A stretch of 64,000 bases of DNA from Limosilactobacillus fermentum (GTDB lineage: Bacteria; Bacillota; Bacilli; Lactobacillales; Lactobacillaceae): the NCBI RefSeq assembly GCF_013394085.1, contig NZ_CP040910.1:1337418-1401417 (forward strand), read 5' to 3'. Positions 13,897-37,438 of this stretch are shown here, piece after piece (the first letter of the stretch is position 1; every line of letters starts with the position of its first letter). The notes beneath the pieces were generated by a model that was given only the letters and a program-made list of their open reading frames with translations, searched no databases and was not told the DNA's origin. Position numbers and translations under genes: made by a program.

Positions 13897-13924
13897 TTGC
13901 AAGTTATTCAATTCGCTCTATAAT
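13897..13924 (+). promoter_or_regulatory. Promoter of the 42-aa peptide gene
   Basis: TTGCAA and consensus TATAAT with a 16-base spacer, about 65 bases before the start codon. Confidence 0.6.
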
Positions 13925-13990
13925 AATCGTATTCAGTACTTTACAAATGTAGAGTATTGAATGGCTAATTCGAAAAGAGGCGAATAATCA

Positions 13991-14119
13991 ATGGCACTTA
14001 GCAAGCAAGAACGTAAGGAAATGGCCAGAAAGGCGATGGAAAAGCGTGGGAGCAAGAAGCCAGATGGCTCTGGTTTTGCCCGGATTGACGCTGACGCGAA
14101 GAAGTTAGAAAACGAATAA
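13991..14119 (+). CDS. Small charged peptide, 42 aa, unknown
   Basis: The ORF encodes MALSKQERKEMARKAMEKRG followed by SKKPDGSGFARIDADAKKLENE. It is highly charged and helical at the N-terminus with no membrane span. It looks expressed: AGAGG lies shortly before the ATG, a consensus -10 lies upstream, and a strong terminator follows 6 bases after the stop. I do not recognise the family. The length and Lys/Arg/Glu content resemble small cytosolic or nucleic-acid-associated proteins of lactobacilli, but no function can be assigned. Confidence 0.65.
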   Translation: MALSKQERKEMARKAMEKRGSKKPDGSGFARIDADAKKLENE

Positions 14120-14125
14120 TTGCTT

Positions 14126-14161
14126 AAAAAAGCTCCCGCCACAACCGGCGGGAGCTTTTTT
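14126..14161. terminator. Bidirectional terminator
   Basis: AAAAAAGCTCCCGCC pairs perfectly with GGCGGGAGCTTTTTT around a 6-base loop. It ends the 42-aa gene on the plus strand and could end glnA transcripts on the minus strand after they pass the repeat element. Confidence 0.92.
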
Positions 14162-14171
14162 ACTATTATAC

Positions 14172-14280
14172 GGGGGCAATAACCGCAGACCTAGTGCCTA
14201 AGCAAGCCGAAGAACGGTGCGTGACGCACCAACCGTTCATTCGATCTTACATACGGCCTGCCGAGTAGGTTATTTCCCAC
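14172..14280 (-). repeat. Structured 3'-UTR repeat element, copy A (glnA)
   Basis: Copy A of a three-copy family. The ends GGGGGCAATAACC and GGTTATTTCCCAC pair at 11 of 13 positions. Inside, GAACGG/CCGTTC and TGCG/CGCA form a hairpin, and flanking TAAG/CTTA and CGA/TCG also pair. Bases 14195-14223 are identical over 29 nt to copy C. The element starts 12 bases after the glnA stop and ends before the terminator, so a minus-strand glnA transcript would include it. I assign the minus strand on that basis; the strand is not proven. Confidence 0.8.
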
Positions 14281-14292
14281 TCTCAGTCGTGT

Positions 14293-15645
14293 TTAGTATT
14301 CGCTCATGTACTTGTCTTGTTCCCACTTGGAAACGGATTGGCGGTAGCCTTCGTATTCCAAGCTCTTAGCCTCATTAAAGGAGCGGTAGAGGTGGTCACC
14401 TAAGGCCGCCTTAATCACGTCGTCTTGGGCCAGGCTCTTCAAGGCGTTGTGCAGGGTGTCTGGTAAGTCGTGGATCCCCTTGGCTTGCCGTTCTGCTTCG
14501 GTCATAGCGTAGATGTTTTCGTCAACGCTGTCAGCCGGCTTTAAACCACGCTTCAAACCGTCCAGCCCAGCGGCTAAGATGGCAGCAATGGCCAGGTACG
14601 GGTTAGCGGACGGGTCAACGGACCGCAATTCCAGCCGGGTCCCCATCCCACGCTCGCTTGGAATCCGGACCATTGGGGAACGGTTAGAGGCAGACCAAGC
14701 AACGTAAACTGGTGCTTCATAGCCCGGAACCAGGCGCTTGTAAGAGTTGACGATCGGGTTGCAGACCGCCGTCACACTACGGGCGTGGTCCATCACCCCA
14801 GCCAAGAATTGGTATGCGGTTTGCGAAAGTTGAACCTTGTCTTGTTCGTCGTAGAAGGAGTTGACTACCTTGCCGCCTTCTTCTTTAAACAAGGACATGT
14901 TCATGTGCATCCCGTTCCCGTTGATGCCGGCCAGTGGCTTTGGCATGAAGGTGGCGTGGAAGCCGTACTTCTTGGCGATCGTCTTCACCACTAACTTGAA
15001 GATTTGGATGTTGTCGGCCGCTTCTAAGGCGTCGGAGTACTTGAAGTCAACTTCGTGTTGGCCCGGTGCAACTTCGTGGTGGGCAGCTTCAACGTTGTAA
15101 CCCATGGATTCCAGGGCCAAAACGATGTCGCGACGGCAGTCTTCACCCTTATCAGCTGGTTCCAGGTCAAAGTAGTTTTCTTGGTCGTTAACCTTGGTGG
15201 TCGTGTTGCCGTTTTCGTCGGTTTCAAAAAGGAAGAATTCTGGTTCTGGACCGATGTTGAAAGCAGAGAAGCCGGCGTCGTTCATTTCCTTGATGACGCG
15301 CTTTAAGTTGTTACGTGGGTCCCCAGCAAATGGCGTCCCGTCCGTCAGGTGAACGGAGCAGATCACTTGGGCAACCTTACCGTGTTCTGCCCCCCATGGG
15401 AAGACCAGCCAGGTCGACATGTCCGGGTACAGGTACATGTCACTTTCTTCGATGCGAACAAACCCATCGATCGAGGAGCCGTCAAACATCACCTTGTTTG
15501 CTAATAATTTGTCAAGTTGGCTAATCGGTAAGTCAACACTCTTCATCGTGCCAAAGAGGTCTGAGAAGGTCACCCGCAAAAAGCGAACATTTTCCTCCTT
15601 AACCAGGGCGTGTACTTCGTCATTCGTGTAAACATGTTTTGCCAT
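14293..15645 (-). CDS. glnA: Glutamine synthetase, type I
   Basis: GlnA (450 aa) makes glutamine from glutamate, ammonia and ATP. It is the short GSI-alpha type typical of Firmicutes, without the adenylylation insert of enterobacterial enzymes. Conserved segments include [21 protein letters not shown], the ammonia/metal region [29 protein letters not shown] and [17 protein letters not shown] precedes the ATG. In many relatives glnR sits directly upstream; here miaA does. A promoter is visible about 125 bases upstream with a structured leader. The 3' side carries the repeat element. Confidence 0.98.
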
Positions 15646-15765
15646 TGTCTGCTATTCCTTCCTCTGTATCATCAAGTAACATCGCCGATCATTAGGCGAT
15701 TGGTCTAGGTCATATCCTTAACCGCCGCCGCCGTTATTGATCGGCTTTTTTAAATCGATGGATCA

Positions 15766-15794
15766 ATAATAACAACCCCACCCGTTAAAATCAA
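15766..15794 (-). promoter_or_regulatory. Promoter of glnA
   Basis: On the minus strand TTGATT and TATTAT with a 17-base spacer. The resulting leader of about 110 bases contains the perfect inverted repeat GCCGATCA/TGATCGGC spanning a GGCGGCGGCGG tract. Confidence 0.6.
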
Positions 15795-15843
15795 TCGATT
15801 CTCGCTGGTTTGAAAAGAGAATGGATTGCTAAGCGCTTTCACT

Positions 15844-16767
15844 TTACTTTTTTAACCAACCGTTAATCAAGGCTTCAATTTCTTCAGTCGTGTTTTGCTG
15901 GCTGACCAGATCAAACCAGTGGACCGTCATTTGGTTGCGAAACCAGGTCAATTGACGCTTGGCGTAGTGGCGCGAATCAAGCTTGATCTTTTCTAGCGCT
16001 TCTTGGCGGCTAACCGTCCCCGCAAAGTAGGGGAACAGCTCCCGGTAGCCAATTCCCTTGCCGGCCTGTTCGTTTTCGCCCCCCTGGTCATATAACCACT
16101 TTGCCTCTTCAAGGAGCCCGTTGGCGACCATTTGATCCACCCGCTGGTTAATTCGCTGGTATAAGACGGGGCGTTGCGTGGTCAACCCAATGATCAAGAA
16201 GTCGTTTTTAGCCGGTGGTTGGGGTTGGGTGGAAAAGAGTGCACCCGTCTTTTCAATCACTTCCAGGGCCCGAATCACCCGCCGTAAGTTCGCCACCGGA
16301 ATCTTAGCGGCCGCCGCGGGGTCGCGCTCGTTTAGCTGCTCCCAAACAAATTGCTTGCCCCGCTCGGTCGCAATTTGGTGCCAGTGATCCCGAATCGCCG
16401 CCGATTCCTGATCGAACTGGTCGCGGCCCAGGGCCAAGTTTTCAACCAGGGCCTGAAGGTAAAAGCCGGTCCCACCAACCACCAATGGCAAATGCCCCCG
16501 GTCTGCAATTTGGTCAATCTCACGCTCAGCGGCGACCTTAAAATCAGCCACCGAAAAGCGGTCGTGAATGTCTTTTACGTCGATCAAGTGGTGCGGAACC
16601 AAGCTCCGTTCTTCCGTCGTCGCCTTGGCGGTCCCAATGTCTAGGCCCCGGTAAACTTGCATCGAGTCACCAGAAATCACCTCCCCACCAAACTTTTGGG
16701 CCACCCGAAGTGACAGGGCGGTCTTGCCCACCGCCGTCGGGCCCACAATTGCCACTACCTTTGCCAT
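15844..16767 (-). CDS. miaA: tRNA dimethylallyltransferase
   Basis: A 307-aa enzyme that adds a dimethylallyl group to A37 of tRNAs reading UNN codons. It has the P-loop GPTAVGKT (residues 9-16), the conserved SGDSMQVYRGLDIGTAK, PHHLIDV, the VGGTGFYLQAL segment, and KGIGYRELFPYF and RHYAKRQLTWFRNQ near the C-terminus. GAGGGA precedes the ATG. It uses dimethylallyl diphosphate, the same isoprenoid pool that feeds ispA. It is probably its own transcription unit, with glnA having a separate promoter downstream. Confidence 0.97.
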   Translation of the reverse strand: MAKVVAIVGPTAVGKTALSLRVAQKFGGEVISGDSMQVYRGLDIGTAKATTEERSLVPHHLIDVKDIHDRFSVADFKVAAEREIDQIADRGHLPLVVGGTGFYLQALVENLALGRDQFDQESAAIRDHWHQIATERGKQFVWEQLNERDPAAAAKIPVANLRRVIRALEVIEKTGALFSTQPQPPAKNDFLIIGLTTQRPVLYQRINQRVDQMVANGLLEEAKWLYDQGGENEQAGKGIGYRELFPYFAGTVSRQEALEKIKLDSRHYAKRQLTWFRNQMTVHWFDLVSQQNTTEEIEALINGWLKK

Positions 16768-16865
16768 CGCTGATCCCTCTTTCTTTGATTAATCTAGATT
16801 TAACTGGTAAAGCCCCTTCAAATCTTGCATAATGATGTTAATTAGAATTGAAGGGGGTATTTTTG

Positions 16866-17042
16866 ATGAAGCACTTTACGCGTGGTTTCTTCTTTGGTAG
16901 CTTAACGACCCTCGGTGCGATCGTCAGTGGGGCACTTGCCTTCCACAAGACCGTGATCAAGCCGATTGAAGAAGAAGAAACCAAGTTCGATGAAAACCGC
17001 CGTTCTGCTACCCGCAAGAACCGTTCGGCACACCAATTGTAA
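16866..17042 (+). CDS. DUF3042 family small membrane protein
   Basis: A 58-aa protein matching the DUF3042 pattern of lactobacilli: MKHFTRGFFFGSLTTLGAIV, one hydrophobic segment at residues 6-27, then HKTVIKPIEEEETKFDENRR and a basic tail. I start at the ATG at 16866 because AGGGGG lies 8 bases upstream; an in-frame TTG at 16848 lies before that site. The function is unknown. It faces away from miaA and converges with the rhodanese gene. A strong terminator follows at once. Confidence 0.88.
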   Translation: MKHFTRGFFFGSLTTLGAIVSGALAFHKTVIKPIEEEETKFDENRRSATRKNRSAHQL

Positions 17043-17087
17043 AATTAAAAGGGGAACGTCGCAATGCAACGTCCCCCTTTTAATTTT
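17041..17087. terminator. Bidirectional terminator
   Basis: AAAATTAAAAGGGG-ACGT pairs with ACGT-CCCCTTTTAATTTT across a short loop, directly after the DUF3042 stop. Confidence 0.9.
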
Positions 17088-17106
17088 CGACGGTTACACA
17101 GATAAC

Positions 17107-17216
17107 GTGGAAACCAACCGCAGGCCTAGTGCCTAAGTACGGGCGGAGAACAGTACGTACCGTACTAACCCCGCCCTAGCTAAGTCATACGACCTGCATA
17201 GGAGGTTGTTTCCCAC
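17107..17216 (-). repeat. Structured 3'-UTR repeat element, copy B (rhodanese gene)
   Basis: Copy B. The ends GTGGAAACCAACC and GGTTGTTTCCCAC pair at 11 of 13 positions. Relative to copies A and C the ninth pair changes from T-A to C-G, a compensatory change. The internal hairpin is GGGCGG/CCGCCC with AGTACG/CGTACT, different bases from copy A but the same layout. The stretch CCGCAGGCCTAGTGCCTAAG is nearly identical to copy A. It ends 5 bases after the rhodanese stop, before the shared terminator. Confidence 0.8.
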
Positions 17217-17221
17217 TTCTC

Positions 17222-17641
17222 TTAATCAATGTACTTGGCCTTTTTAGTCTTCCCTTCCCAGCGAACGTAGCCATCCTTTAAGATGTACAGTTGCTTGAAG
17301 CCGTGCTTGTTCAAGTACACCGCCGCTTGGGTTGACACCGTCATCCCTTCATCGTAGAGGTAAATTGGCATATCGGCACGAAGGTCGACCCCTTGCTGGC
17401 GAAGCAGGGCGTAGGGAACACTGCGGGCGCCTAGAATGTGGCCCCGGTCGAACTGATCCTTTGGCCGTAAATCAATCACCTGGGCACGGCGAAGTCCCGC
17501 TTGGAATTCCTCTTGGCTGAGGACCGTTGCGTAATGGCGCCGGCGCCATGCACCAAGGCCCCAGACCCCGACCCAGACAATCAACAAGACCAAGATAACA
17601 ATGTTTAACATCATCAGACCAGAACTAACTGCTAAAACCAC
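17222..17641 (-). CDS. Membrane-anchored rhodanese-like protein without catalytic Cys
   Basis: A 139-aa protein with one N-terminal transmembrane segment (residues about 10-32), then a rhodanese domain (about 40-135) recognisable by VIDLRPKDQFDRGHILGARSVPY. The active-site loop reads IYLYDEGMTVS, so the usual cysteine of a sulfurtransferase is an aspartate. It resembles B. subtilis YqhL-type proteins next to glcK. It is probably not a sulfurtransferase and may bind a ligand or partner at the membrane. The GTG start at 17641 has GGGGG 8 bases upstream, 24 bases after glcK. Confidence 0.85.
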   Translation of the reverse strand: MVLAVSSGLMMLNIVILVLLIVWVGVWGLGAWRRRHYATVLSQEEFQAGLRRAQVIDLRPKDQFDRGHILGARSVPYALLRQQGVDLRADMPIYLYDEGMTVSTQAAVYLNKHGFKQLYILKDGYVRWEGKTKKAKYID

Positions 17642-17665
17642 GATTCAATCCCCCACTAACATTTT

Positions 17666-18628
17666 TTATGCAAACCGGCGTGCCAAGGAAGCCGCCCCGA
17701 TCACCCCAGCGTCGTTACCTAATTCGGCTAACTTAAGTTGGGTCGTCGTCCGAACGGTTGGGAAGGCAAATTCTTGGAAGTTCTTTTCCACCCGCTTGAG
17801 CAAGAAGTCACCGGCAGCGGAAACCCCACCACCGATTACCAGGAATTCTGGGTTCAAGGCGTCGGCTAAGTTAGCGCATGCCAGACCCAGGTAGAAGGCC
17901 ACTTGGTTAACAACTTCGTTACCTAAGAAGTCGTTTTCCTTGGCCAGGTCAAAGACGATCTTAGAGGTAATTTCATCCCCGTTATCGATCATCGCCTTCA
18001 AGCGAGAATTACCTTCGTATTCTTCCGCCTTGTCTTGGGCAATGTGAACCACCCCGGTTGCCGAAGCGTATTGTTCTAAGCAACCGTGGTTCCCACAGGT
18101 ACAAAGGTAACCGTTCGGTTGAACGATCATGTGGCCAACTTCACCACCGGCACCCAGCCCGTGGATCAATTCACCATTGGCGATCAAGCCACCACCGACC
18201 CCGGTCCCCAGGGTGATGAAGGCCACGTCGTCACCATCGTTACCGGCACCCTTCCAGCGTTCACCGAGGGCCGCTACGTTGGCGTCGTTGTCCAGGGCAA
18301 ACTTCAGGCCGGTACCTTCTTCGATTTGGTCCTTGACGTTTTGCGTCGTCTTCCAGTTCAGGTTGTAAGCACCCTTAACGGTCCCCTTTGCCAGGTCGAT
18401 CGTCCCGGGCGTCCCCATCCCGATCCCGATGAATTGATCCTTACTCATCTTGTAAAGGTCGATGTGGTGGTTGATGGAGTCAATAATGTCCGGCACAATG
18501 TGGGAACCTTCATCCAAAATGTTAGTCCGAAGTGACCACTTTTCTTGGATTTCCCCTTCAGCCGTCAGGATAGCGAACTTAATCGTCGTCCCACCTAAGT
18601 CAACACCAATCAGCTTCTTGTTCGTCAT
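17666..18628 (-). CDS. glcK: Glucokinase, ROK family
   Basis: A 320-aa ROK kinase that phosphorylates glucose with ATP. It has the N-terminal phosphate-binding GVDLGGTTIKFAI, the sugar-binding DNDANVAALGE, the second nucleotide motif LGTGVGGGLI and the zinc/ROK signature GHMIVQPNGYLCTCGNHGCLE with its cysteines intact. It sits in the common Firmicute order rhomboid-yqgQ-glcK-rhodanese. GAGGGA lies before the ATG. A heterofermenter would use it for non-PTS glucose. Confidence 0.97.
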   Translation of the reverse strand: MTNKKLIGVDLGGTTIKFAILTAEGEIQEKWSLRTNILDEGSHIVPDIIDSINHHIDLYKMSKDQFIGIGMGTPGTIDLAKGTVKGAYNLNWKTTQNVKDQIEEGTGLKFALDNDANVAALGERWKGAGNDGDDVAFITLGTGVGGGLIANGELIHGLGAGGEVGHMIVQPNGYLCTCGNHGCLEQYASATGVVHIAQDKAEEYEGNSRLKAMIDNGDEITSKIVFDLAKENDFLGNEVVNQVAFYLGLACANLADALNPEFLVIGGGVSAAGDFLLKRVEKNFQEFAFPTVRTTTQLKLAELGNDAGVIGAASLARRFA

Positions 18629-18645
18629 AATGAATAATCCCTCTT

Positions 18646-18882
18646 CTAATTTAAGTATTTACCTTCCGGATGCTCTTCTTCGAGACGGTGTTCCTTTCGT
18701 AAAACCAGCTTGGCTTTCATGTACACATCCCGCTCTAAAACGCCGGCTTGGTATAAGTTGTCGAGTTCAATTGCCATCAGTTCAATGTCCCACAAGCGTT
18801 TACCAACGTACACGAAGACGTTGAACTGCTTTAAGAGTTGCTGAACATCGTACAGGGTGCGGAGCTGTTCAATCCGTTTCAT
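18646..18882 (-). CDS. yqgQ: YqgQ family protein (DUF910)
   Basis: A 78-aa member of DUF910/YqgQ, with LYDVQQLLKQFNVFVYVGKR and LDNLYQAGVLERDVYMKAKLVLRKE. B. subtilis YqgQ is a small helical protein of unknown function, with a proposed nucleic-acid-binding role from structure. The ATG overlaps the rhomboid stop (ATGA), and glcK follows 17 bases after its stop. The pairing with glcK is conserved in lactobacilli. Confidence 0.93.
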   Translation of the reverse strand: MKRIEQLRTLYDVQQLLKQFNVFVYVGKRLWDIELMAIELDNLYQAGVLERDVYMKAKLVLRKEHRLEEEHPEGKYLN

Positions 18883-30429: not shown

Positions 30430-30660
30430 AAAGAAAAAGCCCCGTCCAAAAAGGGACGAGGCTTCGCGGTACCACCCTAGTTCTTGACAATTGCCAAACA
30501 CTTTTTTGATTGGTAACGGTAATCAACCGGGTACAAGTACCGACTCCGGAAGTGAAATTCGCTGCTGAAGTAGTGGTTGGGGTTCCAGTTGCTACCCCGA
30601 CCTCCCTGAAACTACTTGTGACAGTTACTAGTTTCCATCACTGTCTTTTTAAACAGTTAA
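30430..30660 (-). promoter_or_regulatory. T-box riboswitch (Phe) of pheST
   Basis: On the minus strand the T-box core AGGGTGGTACCGCG lies around 30463-30476, followed by a terminator AAGCCTCGTCCC/GGGACGAGGC-like hairpin with a T-run ending near 30430. Upstream is a long stem I with an AGTAACTG segment, whose distal loop is closed by GGGGT/ACCCC. The specifier loop contains TTC followed by A, the Phe codon. Uncharged tRNA(Phe) is expected to stabilise the antiterminator and switch on pheST. Confidence 0.92.
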
Positions 30661-34451: not shown

Positions 34452-35768
34452 ATGACCAACACCCCCAACATCATCAAGGAAAGTAATCACTACATCACCC
34501 GTAACATTGCGGCCTCACTGGGGCTTTCAATCTACGTAATCATCGATACCCTCTTCATCTCAATTGCCGCCGGGCCGCTGGGACTGACCGTCTTAAACCT
34601 GGCCCTCCCCCTCTTTTCGGCCTTTAACGCAACTGGGCTCTTATTGGGGGTTGGTGGGGCGGCCTACTACTCGTTAAACAAGCTCACCCACCCCGAGCGG
34701 GTCGAGCACTTGTTTAGCCAGCTAATTATCTTCGTGGCTGGACTGGGGATCCTGGTGACCATCCTAATCAACCTCTTTGCCACCCCACTTTTGCACCTAC
34801 TAGGAGCCAACGCCGCCACCTTACCAATGGGGCTAACCTACGTGCGGATCATTAGCCTGGCGGCCCCCTTTTACATGGCCAACTACATTGTGGTCAACTT
34901 CGTCAGAAACGACGGCAACCCTAACCTGACGATGATCGCAACTTTAACCGAAACCACCGGGGTGATCCTCGTCGATTGGTTGTTCATCTTTGGCCTCGGT
35001 CTGCATATGGAAGGGGCGGCCCTCGCCGTCCTCTTTTCACCGGTCTGCAGCCTGACGGTACTGTCTTTTCACCGCCGTTTCAAGGGCCGCCAGCTCCACT
35101 GGTACTGGACTTGGCCGCGCCTGAAAAGCGTCGCCACCGCCGCCCGGCTTGGGGTTGCCGCGGCCTCTAACGAACTGGCTAACGGGGTTTCGATCTACGT
35201 CTTCAACCTCGTCTTGTTGCACCTGGCTGGTAACTACGCCGTGGCGGCCTACGGGGTGATTTCCAACATCGCGATTGTGACGATTGCGATTGCCAACGGG
35301 GTTGCCCTCGGGGCCCAGCCACTAATCTCACGCGAAGTCGGCGACCACCGCTTCACCGCCGGCAAGCAGATCCTAAACCACGCCTTTAAGATCACCATTA
35401 GCCTGGCCCTCTTATTAACCCTGATTTTAGTCCTGTTTAAGGGGCCGATCATCGGAATCTTCAACGCCGAGCACCAGGCCCAACTGGTTAAGTACGCCAC
35501 GGTGGGGTTACCAATCTACTTCACCTCGGCCGTCTTCACCGCCATCAACCTGATGGCAATCATCTTCTTGACCGCCATCGGGTCCTCGCGGTTTGCCTTC
35601 GTCCTTTCCTTTTTACGGGGCTACTTGATCCTCATCCCAATGATCATTGGCCTTGGGGCCATCCTCGGCATTACCGGGGTGTGGGCGGCCGTGCCGATAA
35701 CCGAATTCTTAGTGACCATGCTCGCCCTGCTTTTGATCAGGGCCCGCTTAAAAGAATGGGGACACTAA
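34452..35768 (+). CDS. MATE family efflux transporter
   Basis: A 438-aa protein of about 12 transmembrane segments, matching the multidrug and toxin extrusion family (two repeated six-helix halves, with GLTVLNLALPLFSAFNATGLLLGVGGAAYYS in the first). Members exchange cations or drugs for Na+ or H+. The open frame extends upstream to 34326, but I start at the ATG at 34452 (MTNTPNIIKESNHYITRNIA), 11 bases after AAGGAG. Upstream residues have no family match and would cover the promoter. The substrate is unknown. It follows def by about 155 bases and ends at a strong terminator. Confidence 0.92.
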   Translation: MTNTPNIIKESNHYITRNIAASLGLSIYVIIDTLFISIAAGPLGLTVLNLALPLFSAFNATGLLLGVGGAAYYSLNKLTHPERVEHLFSQLIIFVAGLGILVTILINLFATPLLHLLGANAATLPMGLTYVRIISLAAPFYMANYIVVNFVRNDGNPNLTMIATLTETTGVILVDWLFIFGLGLHMEGAALAVLFSPVCSLTVLSFHRRFKGRQLHWYWTWPRLKSVATAARLGVAAASNELANGVSIYVFNLVLLHLAGNYAVAAYGVISNIAIVTIAIANGVALGAQPLISREVGDHRFTAGKQILNHAFKITISLALLLTLILVLFKGPIIGIFNAEHQAQLVKYATVGLPIYFTSAVFTAINLMAIIFLTAIGSSRFAFVLSFLRGYLILIPMIIGLGAILGITGVWAAVPITEFLVTMLALLLIRARLKEWGH

Positions 35769-35815
35769 AATAAGAGCCTGGGAGAAAACCGTGTTTTCTC
35801 CCAGGCTCTTATTTT
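35767..35815. terminator. Bidirectional terminator after the MATE gene
   Basis: A perfect 23-bp stem (35767-35789 with 35793-35815; ends AAAATAAGAGCC and GGCTCTTATTTT) with a 3-base loop. It overlaps the MATE stop codon. Confidence 0.95.
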
Positions 35816-35838
35816 ATGCTCGAATGTTAGACCAACAC

Positions 35839-35943
35839 GTGGCAACTAACCGCCGGTTGGCTGCCTAAGCAAGCCGAAGAACGGTGCGTGCTACACCATC
35901 CTCCCCCTCTTCCGGCCGGCCCGCCGGAAGGGTTATTTACCAC
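35839..35943 (-). repeat. Structured 3'-UTR repeat element, copy C (ArlS-like gene)
   Basis: Copy C. The ends GTGGCAACTAACC and GGTTATTTACCAC pair at 11 of 13 positions. Bases 35862-35890 match copy A exactly over 29 nt. The inner 3' half differs and contains its own TTCCGGC/GCCGGAA hairpin. Its 3' edge overlaps the last four codons of the histidine kinase gene: the Ser-Gly-Lys-stop codons lie within the repeat end. The order terminator, element, minus-strand stop is the same as for A and B. Confidence 0.75.
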
Positions 35944-37438
35944 TTTCCTTGTTTTTGGCTTCTTTTTCGTCACCTGGTTCCACGATCGGCAGGGTAATCC
36001 GGAACAGCGAACCGGACCCCAGCTGGCTTTCCACCGTCACCGTTCCGTGGTAACCCTCCACCAGGCGTTTGGCGATCGCCAACCCGAGTCCGTTACCACC
36101 CTTCTTACGGCTCCTGGCCTTATCAACCCGGTAGAAGCGGTCAAAGACCCGGTGAAGATCCTCTTGAGAAATTCCTTCCCCAAAGTCTTGCACCCCAATC
36201 TCAACGGCCCGCAGGTTCCGGGAGAGCGACAGGTGGATTTCCTTGCGCTCGTTGGAGTACTTAACGGCGTTATCACAGAGGATGATCAGAATTTGCTCGA
36301 GGTGATCCCGGTAAACCGGCACCAAGACGTCCTCATCTAGGTCATCATCCAGGCTGAAGTGAAAGTCCGGGTGAATCATCCGGAAGTTATCGTAGACCTG
36401 ATTAACTAGCTTTTTGACCGGCGTGGTGGCGTTTCTAAAGTTAACTTCAACCTGGCCCGCCCGGGTCAAATCAAGCATTTCTTTAATCAGGGTGTTCATC
36501 CGGTTCGTTTCGGCTAGGGCCGCTTGAATCGATTCTTCCAGTTGCTTGGGGTCATCCTTACCCCACCGCTCTAGCAGCTGCATGTGCCCCTGAATGATGG
36601 CCACCGGGGTCCGCAATTCGTGGGAAACGTCGCCCACGAACTGGGACTGTTGATCAATGTAGCGCTGGGTGCGGTCGATCATTTCGTTGAACATCCAGGC
36701 CAATTCACCTAATTCATCGTTCCGACTGGTGACCGGCACCCGGCGATTCTTGGTTGGGTCATCAGACAAGACCTCCACCGTTTCCTGGATGTCATTTAGC
36801 GGTCGTAAGAGGAAGTAGGATAAGAAGTAGCCCATCAGGCCCGAAAAGATCACCACTAAGCTGAGGGCCAAAATTGAGATCAGTTGTAGGCGCCGGTAGT
36901 GCTGGAAGTAATTATCCAGGTTGTTTTCCACCTGCAGGTAGCCGATCACTTGGTGGGTCTTGGAACTGCGGATCGGTACCCGCCCGATCAGGTACTGGTG
37001 CTTTTTGCCACTCACCGTTTTAATGGTCTGCTCACTGACCTTTTGAAAGCCCTGATTTTCCTCCCCGGTGGCAAAGAGATCCTTACCACTACGGTTATAA
37101 ACCGTCACGGTCAGGTGGCCATCCGACAGGCCCTGGACAACCGGGCGGCGGTATACCTTTCCACTTCCCGCCTCCTTGGGGGTTAGGGCGTTGTCCTTGA
37201 GGGTTTGGTCAACTTTACTTGCGGTGAGCTCGCTCTCAGACGCCTGGCCTAGCTTTTGGCTAATGGCCATTAACGATTGGGTTAGCGTCTGGCGTTCTTG
37301 GCCGAGCAAGTCCTGGGTGAATGAAGAGAACAAAACCATCACCACCGCCAGCGAGATGATTAACGACCCCAACGCCGTTCCCAGGGCCCACTTTAATTTG
37401 AGGGAGACGAAGCGGTTCCCCCGCTTTCGTTCGTCCAT
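35933..37438 (-). CDS. arlS: Sensor histidine kinase, ArlS-like
   Basis: A 501-aa HAMP sensor kinase. It has TM1 at residues about 15-40, an extracytoplasmic sensor region, TM2 at about 187-210, a HAMP linker, then the kinase: H-box DVSHELRTPVAIIQGHMQLLERW, N-box ILCDNAVKYS, and G-boxes DFGEGIS and GGNGLGLAIAKRLVEG. The order and spacing resemble S. aureus/lactobacillus ArlS. I use the ATG at 37438 with AGGTGG upstream; the gap to the regulator's stop is 13 bases. The stop codon is inside repeat element C. The signal it senses is not known. Confidence 0.92.
   Translation of the reverse strand: MDERKRGNRFVSLKLKWALGTALGSLIISLAVVMVLFSSFTQDLLGQERQTLTQSLMAISQKLGQASESELTASKVDQTLKDNALTPKEAGSGKVYRRPVVQGLSDGHLTVTVYNRSGKDLFATGEENQGFQKVSEQTIKTVSGKKHQYLIGRVPIRSSKTHQVIGYLQVENNLDNYFQHYRRLQLISILALSLVVIFSGLMGYFLSYFLLRPLNDIQETVEVLSDDPTKNRRVPVTSRNDELGELAWMFNEMIDRTQRYIDQQSQFVGDVSHELRTPVAIIQGHMQLLERWGKDDPKQLEESIQAALAETNRMNTLIKEMLDLTRAGQVEVNFRNATTPVKKLVNQVYDNFRMIHPDFHFSLDDDLDEDVLVPVYRDHLEQILIILCDNAVKYSNERKEIHLSLSRNLRAVEIGVQDFGEGISQEDLHRVFDRFYRVDKARSRKKGGNGLGLAIAKRLVEGYHGTVTVESQLGSGSLFRITLPIVEPGDEKEAKNKESGK

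Follow-up and report, generated by a model that had tools for sequence, protein, structure and literature searches.

Structured short interspersed repeats of the pneumococcus, known as BOX, RUP and SPRITE, are called parasitic by their authors; they are enriched between convergent genes, nearly missing from most other streptococci and slow-moving, with a variable number of modules in BOX and a terminator-like form, located near gene 3' ends, in SPRITE (Croucher et al. 2011, PMC3049150). They are the closest described kind to the repeat family of Limosilactobacillus fermentum reported here, the likeness being one of described features. The L. fermentum element differs from what is described there in being a single unbranched rod with genus-wide covarying pairs and letters that turn over, and in the sharp polarity of its 5' end to stop codons. 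With the REP/REPIN-RAYT systems it shares the character of high-copy extragenic palindromes, the fold of which is thought to be recognised as a single strand; it is, however, several times longer than the 20–40 bp of REPs, and Y1 transposase genes do not track it. REPs bear GTAG/CGTC tags. Like MITEs, the element is non-coding and has inverted-repeat ends and many copies without a transposase of its own, but no matching insertion sequence ends (among the Y1 elements examined) and no clear target-site duplication were found.

Integron attC sites consist of a folded strand, an imperfect hairpin with conserved extra-helical parts that lies just past a stop codon and forms tandem arrays; their ends follow the consensus RYYYAAC...GTTRRRY. 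The L. fermentum element resembles them in its folded imperfect hairpin, post-stop location and tandem arrays, but its ends read AGTGSG...CACG and its tandem units showed no cassette gene between them. No account of the family was found in the literature, which was covered largely through openly accessible papers. Lactobacilli are unmentioned in the available parts of a MITE review (PMC10969869, word search) and of PMC3733652, and a survey of stem-loop families (PMC2267715) includes, in its accessible part, L. johnsonii and not L. fermentum.

Structure and Surroundings of the Elements

Three copies of the family are present in the window, the whole 64,000-nucleotide stretch of the L. fermentum genome that was analyzed (NZ_CP040910.1, positions 1,337,418–1,401,417). 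Copy B (17093–17217, minus strand) is a full match to the covariance model R1 (134.0 bits, E 1.5e-35) and comprises a rod hairpin (17107–17217, minus) and a 3' tail with the letters GTTATCTGTGTAAC in sense orientation (17093–17106, minus). On the folding strand it starts 4 nt past the stop codon of a rhodanese-like gene (17222–17641, minus), an open reading frame annotated in strain DR9 as 'rhodanese-like domain-containing protein'. The other flank is occupied by a small convergent gene of the DUF3042 family (16848–17042, plus; open reading frame and DR9 annotation), and a terminator-like hairpin read by eye (17045–17085, no strand assigned) lies between the two genes.

Copy A (14158–14281, minus; 113.5 bits, E 1e-29) is located downstream of glnA (14293–15645, minus; open reading frame and DR9 annotation), the stop codon of which precedes it by 11 nt. 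The public annotation of DR9 shows the same spacings, with 4 nt between the end of the rhodanese gene and the element and 11 nt in the case of glnA. Copy C (35826–35944, minus; 73.4 bits, E 2.6e-18), which carries GGTGCG/TACACC in the hairpin, has lost one pair in the tip, three in helix 2 and one in the outer helix, and is therefore regarded as partly decayed. Beyond its 3' end lies a terminator-like inverted repeat (35766–35816, no strand assigned) with 24-nt arms that are 100% complementary.

All three copies reach their best model score on the minus strand. The weaker mirror matches on the plus strand (42.5 bits for copy B, 26.3 for A and 19.1 for C) are expected of a long inverted repeat. 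Folding of positions 17090–17230 yields -58.3 kcal/mol on the minus strand vs. -46.8 kcal/mol on the plus strand (z -3.8 and -3.6 against shuffles). The better-folding strand is, by these computations, the minus strand of the window, a correction to the initial annotation. Rfam models produced no match at gathering score at the elements of the window or at 15 other loci, and the ten matches obtained around copy B at a relaxed threshold were all far under gathering scores. The leaders found in the window at gathering score are a T-box (30449–30650), L20 (46736–46868) and L21 (9807–9877), all on the minus strand.

Compensatory Changes and the Folded Strand

On the minus strand the element forms an unbranched rod of about 110 nt followed by a tail of about 14 nt. 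Proceeding inwards, the outer helix is separated from helix 2 by a 5' bulge of about 6 nt; next comes a CUAAG/CUUAG helix with an internal loop on either side, and the tip hairpin closes the rod. The outer helix represents covarying inverted-repeat ends, and the whole rod is a single inverted repeat.

The initial annotation had noticed that copy B differs from its neighbours in two places in a way that preserves base pairing. Direct reading of the window bears this out: copy B has CAACC (17115–17119) and GGTTG (17204–17208) where copies A and C have TAACC/GGTTA, and AGTACG (17152–17157) and CGTACT (17161–17166) where copy A has GGTGCG/CGCACC, with pairing kept in both cases. Among 32 copies, namely the 30 best BLAST places (copy B included) together with copies A and C, the helix change is a covarying pair, being U-A in 21, C-G in 11 and broken in none; the same is true of the hairpin change (G-C in 22, A-U in 10, broken in none). 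An additional tip change in copy B, from G-C to A-U at columns 58/67, occurs in 1 of the 32.

Alignment of the genomic copies and counting of covariation indicated that compensatory change is systematic and not an accident of three sequences. Across 37 pairs in the 32 copies, 96.0% of cells are paired, compared to 90.3% in shuffled and 35–44% in slid controls, figures that carry some bias in favour of the structure, above all in the slid control, since the structure was derived from the same alignments. Both sides change at 19 of the 37 pairs, against 9.4 in shuffles, with a covariation score of 0.230 vs. 0.128. None of 500 shuffles matched the percentage paired, the double-change pairs, the double-change cells or the covariation score, while the measure of further pair types was ordinary, being matched by 99 of 500.

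A genus alignment of 26 sequences from 15 genomes drew four on this genome and the remaining 22 on fourteen further ones, the latter sequences being taken from 27 loci fetched from relatives, of which five were omitted as their genomes were already represented. Here 94.2% of cells are paired, vs. 75.0% shuffled and 32–43% slid, with the same bias in favour of the structure, and double changes occur at 33 of 38 pairs; no shuffle attains any of the five measures. The bulge of about 6 nt and the internal loops are retained in most of the sequences compared genus-wide. The excess of paired cells and covariation in both alignments indicates that the fold is constrained. Nor do additional copies break the pairing freely: counted over 148 distinct copies, pairing is kept in 93.6% of 5,329 cells.

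The strand that folds was assessed in these 148 copies at 34 mainly Watson-Crick pairs. Read on the minus strand, 241 cells are G-U and 112 are A-C, compared to 484 and 350 in shuffles; counted by pair the ratio is 20 to 10 (p = 0.10), and three pairs contribute 96 of the 241 G-U cells. This modest excess makes the minus strand the likelier folded strand, with no certainty; it is a modest pointer to that strand and not proof of RNA. The G.U and U.G pairs of the tip are nearly invariant (31/32 and 32/32 copies).

Copy Number and Tandem Arrays

A BLAST search of the genome with copy B as the query returned 48 places. The R1 model, built from the 32 copies, detected at least 150 copies in the 1.89-Mb genome, none overlapping (the best 150 of 817 candidates). 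A 15-letter pattern of the 3' core, with at most one mismatch, occurs at 177 places, vs. 2 for the same pattern written backwards, and 30 of the 100 of these places listed lie outside the 150 R1 copies. Reading of 23 of these 30 revealed two chance-like matches (279564 and 1562634, with flanks not element-like); the rest belong to the family, several of them almost complete and some without an arm or the tip. These counts suggest a family of about 200 copies which, at about 120 bp each, would by estimate make up roughly 1% of the L. fermentum genome. Two copies (loci L297 and L308) have the tip hairpin deleted and the outer parts retained.

Copies within 1.5 kb of each other form 24 sets, 15 of which have a head-to-tail spacing of 118–124 bp. 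One array, at about 1267195–1267617 of the genome, comprises 3.6 units of 119 bp with 99% matches and starts directly past a stop codon. Among dispersed, non-duplicated copies the closest pair is 96.8% alike, and the median similarity to the nearest neighbour is 87%. Identical copies with identical flanks were observed about 14.1 kb apart (404457/418562 and 410727/424810), which suggests a duplicated chromosome segment.

Placement Relative to Genes

Neighbouring genes were taken from a codon-usage gene caller applied to 437,552 bases, in which some distances are region-end artefacts. The 128 copy groups lie between convergent genes (60), between co-directional genes in sense (30) or antisense (32) orientation, or between divergent genes (6). 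Their 5' ends are strongly polarized: in 67 of 90 groups the stop codon of a same-strand 5' neighbour is within 15 nt of the element start, so that the 5' end adjoins a stop codon in about half of all groups, and on the 3' side a facing opposite-strand stop codon lies within 15 nt in 1 of 92 groups. The stop-codon rule is not general, as both neighbours run antisense to the element in 32 of the 128 groups, and in 23 of the 90 the same-strand stop codon is more than 15 nt away. The motif formed by the first 14 nt was found directly past the stop codon at 55 of 389 gene ends, and at 2 of 69 gene ends in the window. Called copies account for 41 of the 55. Some of the other 14 gene ends bear short remnants and some longer copies outside the called set; several of the 14 face a full copy behind the convergent gene.

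A strong hairpin is present past the 3' end in 80 of the 128 groups, with a median start at 17 nt, compared to 23/128 on the 5' side, 7/128 in shuffled flanks and 21/69 at ordinary gene ends of the window. At a laxer threshold, a hairpin no more than 70 nt from the 3' end accompanies 44 of 60 convergent (11 when shuffled), 15 of 30 co-directional (6), 9 of 32 antisense (2) and 2 of 6 divergent groups (0). A rule that insertion always occurs beside a terminator was dropped as a general one, given these counts by context. No bias of orientation with respect to replication was detected (56/128 co-directional, p = 0.18, with the terminus assumed at 0.95 Mb).

Distribution in Relatives, Plasmids and Strain DR9

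The sister species L. gorillae is the nearest relative among the named matches of one protein search (91% protein identity). The element is present at none of the 18 orthologous sites with both flanks, the comparison being confined to 18 of the 128 groups by coverage of 373 kb of the approximately 1.6-Mb L. gorillae genome. A model search of these 373 kb gave no match at E up to 1, and model searches of the whole genome gave none among the candidates scored. At the site of copy B, L. gorillae has the stop codon, a few nucleotides and a near-identical terminator, with no element between. Loss in L. gorillae could in principle also leave such element-free sites. Behind glnA, at 24 of 28 loci read by eye, the element occurs only in this genome; one other locus (L205) carries a rod that is similarly laid out but divergent. 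No R1 match was found at 22 named rhodanese loci of related species.

Among the matches listed, R1 was positive in 14 of the 21 additional genomes searched within the genus and in none of 16 genomes of other families of the order, and a further model, R2, in 32 of 50 genomes of the genus, this one included. Outside the genus, at least four genomes, one of them from another family, contain weak, structurally alike matches, few and of modest score; as one of these searches considered the best 14 candidates per genome, its negatives are weak. The genome of the other family (G234) carries five copies with 89–100% identity. Mixed arrays of different rods with the common ends AGTGCGA...GCACGTTTTAA were seen there (loci L279, L283, L319 and L320), and at L279 the first array unit begins on a stop codon.

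A plasmid collection searched with another copy from this genome yielded 35 records bearing seven genus names, of which four cover at least 80% of the query. Two of the 35 are labelled L. fermentum (760 and 252 kb). The larger, CP033372.1 ('plasmid unnamed1' of DR9), encodes ribosomal proteins, FusA, GlnA and the RNA polymerase beta subunit, and is thus evidently chromosome mislabelled as plasmid; CP033373.1 (252 kb) may likewise be chromosomal. Four copies are found on plasmids of L. sakei, Lactobacillus sp. JM1 and L. gastricus, where the annotated stop codon precedes the element by 2 nt (asnB), 2 nt (thiD) and 4 nt (a substrate-binding protein gene), respectively. The fourth copy, the second on the JM1 plasmid, is antisense and lies in front of thiM. 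A gene annotated as 'putative holin-like toxin' (L327 4621–4710, L328 5471–5533 and L329 4404–4481) is located 0.5–2.4 kb from the element on all three plasmids, which may be chance. No match was found in phage records.

Positions 13900–18700 of the window are 99.7% identical to strain DR9. In 300 kb of one DR9 record 23 sites were comparable: 14 match to within 5 bp, another three deviate by -6, -6 and -11 bp, and three by approximately whole or 1.5 units (-120, +123 and -179 bp, the last in the array of 3.6 units of 119 bp described above). Three are longer in DR9, by 153, 1365 and 2070 bp, with IS200/IS605 genes annotated near the last. None of the 23 was shortened in DR9 as an empty single-copy site would be. 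Together with the 96.8% similarity of the closest copies (median 87%), this reveals no recent jump. The spread of the family thus looks old, and its present change lies mainly in unit number.

Nature of the Element and Alternative Explanations

Taken together, these data are best explained if copy B is a member of an old, non-autonomous, MITE/REP-like family of mobile hairpins that spread long ago in the L. fermentum lineage, a reading to which we assign a probability of roughly two in three. Accordingly placed among described elements, this is a small interspersed mobile repeat, unusual for the genus-wide strictness of its fold and for its stop-codon polarity. An enzyme supplied in trans would recognise the folded single strand, and the copies retaining the fold would be those that are copied, because it is the fold that the enzyme would read. 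Insertion or survival would be favoured between a stop codon and the next terminator, and transcription of the preceding gene probably extends through many copies, which would then form its 3' untranslated end. No transposase, autonomous copy or clear target-site duplication was found for the family; the 18 filled/empty pairs in which the duplication was sought by eye are strongly diverged. The reverse transcriptase family PF00078 has no match in this genome and does not track the element. The DR9 annotation includes a 'reverse transcriptase-like protein'.

The same placement could be expected of an RNA element serving the host, one that spread by mobility and is now selected as RNA, capping mRNAs at the 3' untranslated end as an exonuclease shield or an aid to termination. 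The 67 of 90 groups within 15 nt past a same-strand stop codon, the strong hairpin beyond the 3' end (80/128 vs. 7/128 shuffled and 21/69 gene ends in the window), the rarity of placement between divergent genes (6/128), the modest preponderance of G-U over A-C on the sense strand and the nearly invariant G.U and U.G of the tip all accord with it. We nevertheless consider it unlikely: orthologous genes do not share the element (0/18 in L. gorillae), behind glnA it is confined to this genome in the 24 of 28 loci read, an antisense placement relative to both flanking genes is seen in 32 of 128 groups, and avoidance of promoters also fits a tolerated parasite. A gene-specific conserved RNA function is not supported, given 0/18 orthologous sites. 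The argument of the initial annotation, that paired changes speak against plain duplication without RNA or hairpin function, is upheld as regards constraint on the fold, while host RNA function finds no such backing in an element that is scattered, patchily distributed and missing from the 18 sites. These same properties mean that the constraint may act on the mobility of the element, on folded single-stranded DNA or on RNA.

Mobilization of the DNA hairpin by IS200/IS605-type (Y1) transposases, in the way RAYTs act on REPs, appears very improbable. Recognition of a single-strand hairpin would account for both the constraint and the polarity; moreover, this genome contains 15 Y1 matches, one 200 bp from a copy, and in DR9 one copy has annotated IS200/IS605 genes about 0.3 kb away. 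Against this, five element-bearing genomes lack a Y1 match (G006, G010, G019 and G021, which are 99% complete drafts, and G003, 86% complete), Y1 is present without the element in G008 and G013, and the element-free sister species has five Y1 matches. Proximity in this genome is at chance, with 1 of 15 within 500 bp where 1.5 would be expected, and 5 of 15 within 2 kb where 4.0 would be. When 30 Y1 loci, including two of this genome, were scanned with the model, the element was detected at none, and orientation, as noted above, is unbiased to replication.

Hairpin-templated DNA synthesis (quasi-palindrome correction), for which long imperfect inverted repeats are known substrates and by which repair can yield paired changes without selection on the fold, would agree with repeats whose differing unit number between strains marks them as active in DNA metabolism, but we give it very little credence, as it is expected to perfect the palindrome, while most sequences genus-wide retain the bulge and the internal loops, and weakly similar rods of the same plan occur in other genera.

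The mobile-hairpin reading has a wider form, in which the L. fermentum family would belong to a Lactobacillales-wide class of structure-defined mobile hairpins, delivered in fixed orientation to gene 3' ends, between stop codon and terminator, by a dedicated, undescribed enzyme that would read the single-strand fold; this we put forward tentatively, as somewhat improbable on present data. Within such a class, sequence would drift between species while the AGTGCG...GCACGTT ends and the CTAAG/CTTAG helix are kept, with relatives in other families.

The family clearly illustrates how an interspersed bacterial repeat can keep its fold across a genus without keeping its sequence, and so offers a direct test of how mobile DNA recognised by its fold spreads and of whether such repeats alter mRNA ends. 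L. fermentum is a fermentation species, and the position of many copies between stop codon and terminator makes them probably part of the 3' ends of many of its mRNAs, which the elements may affect.
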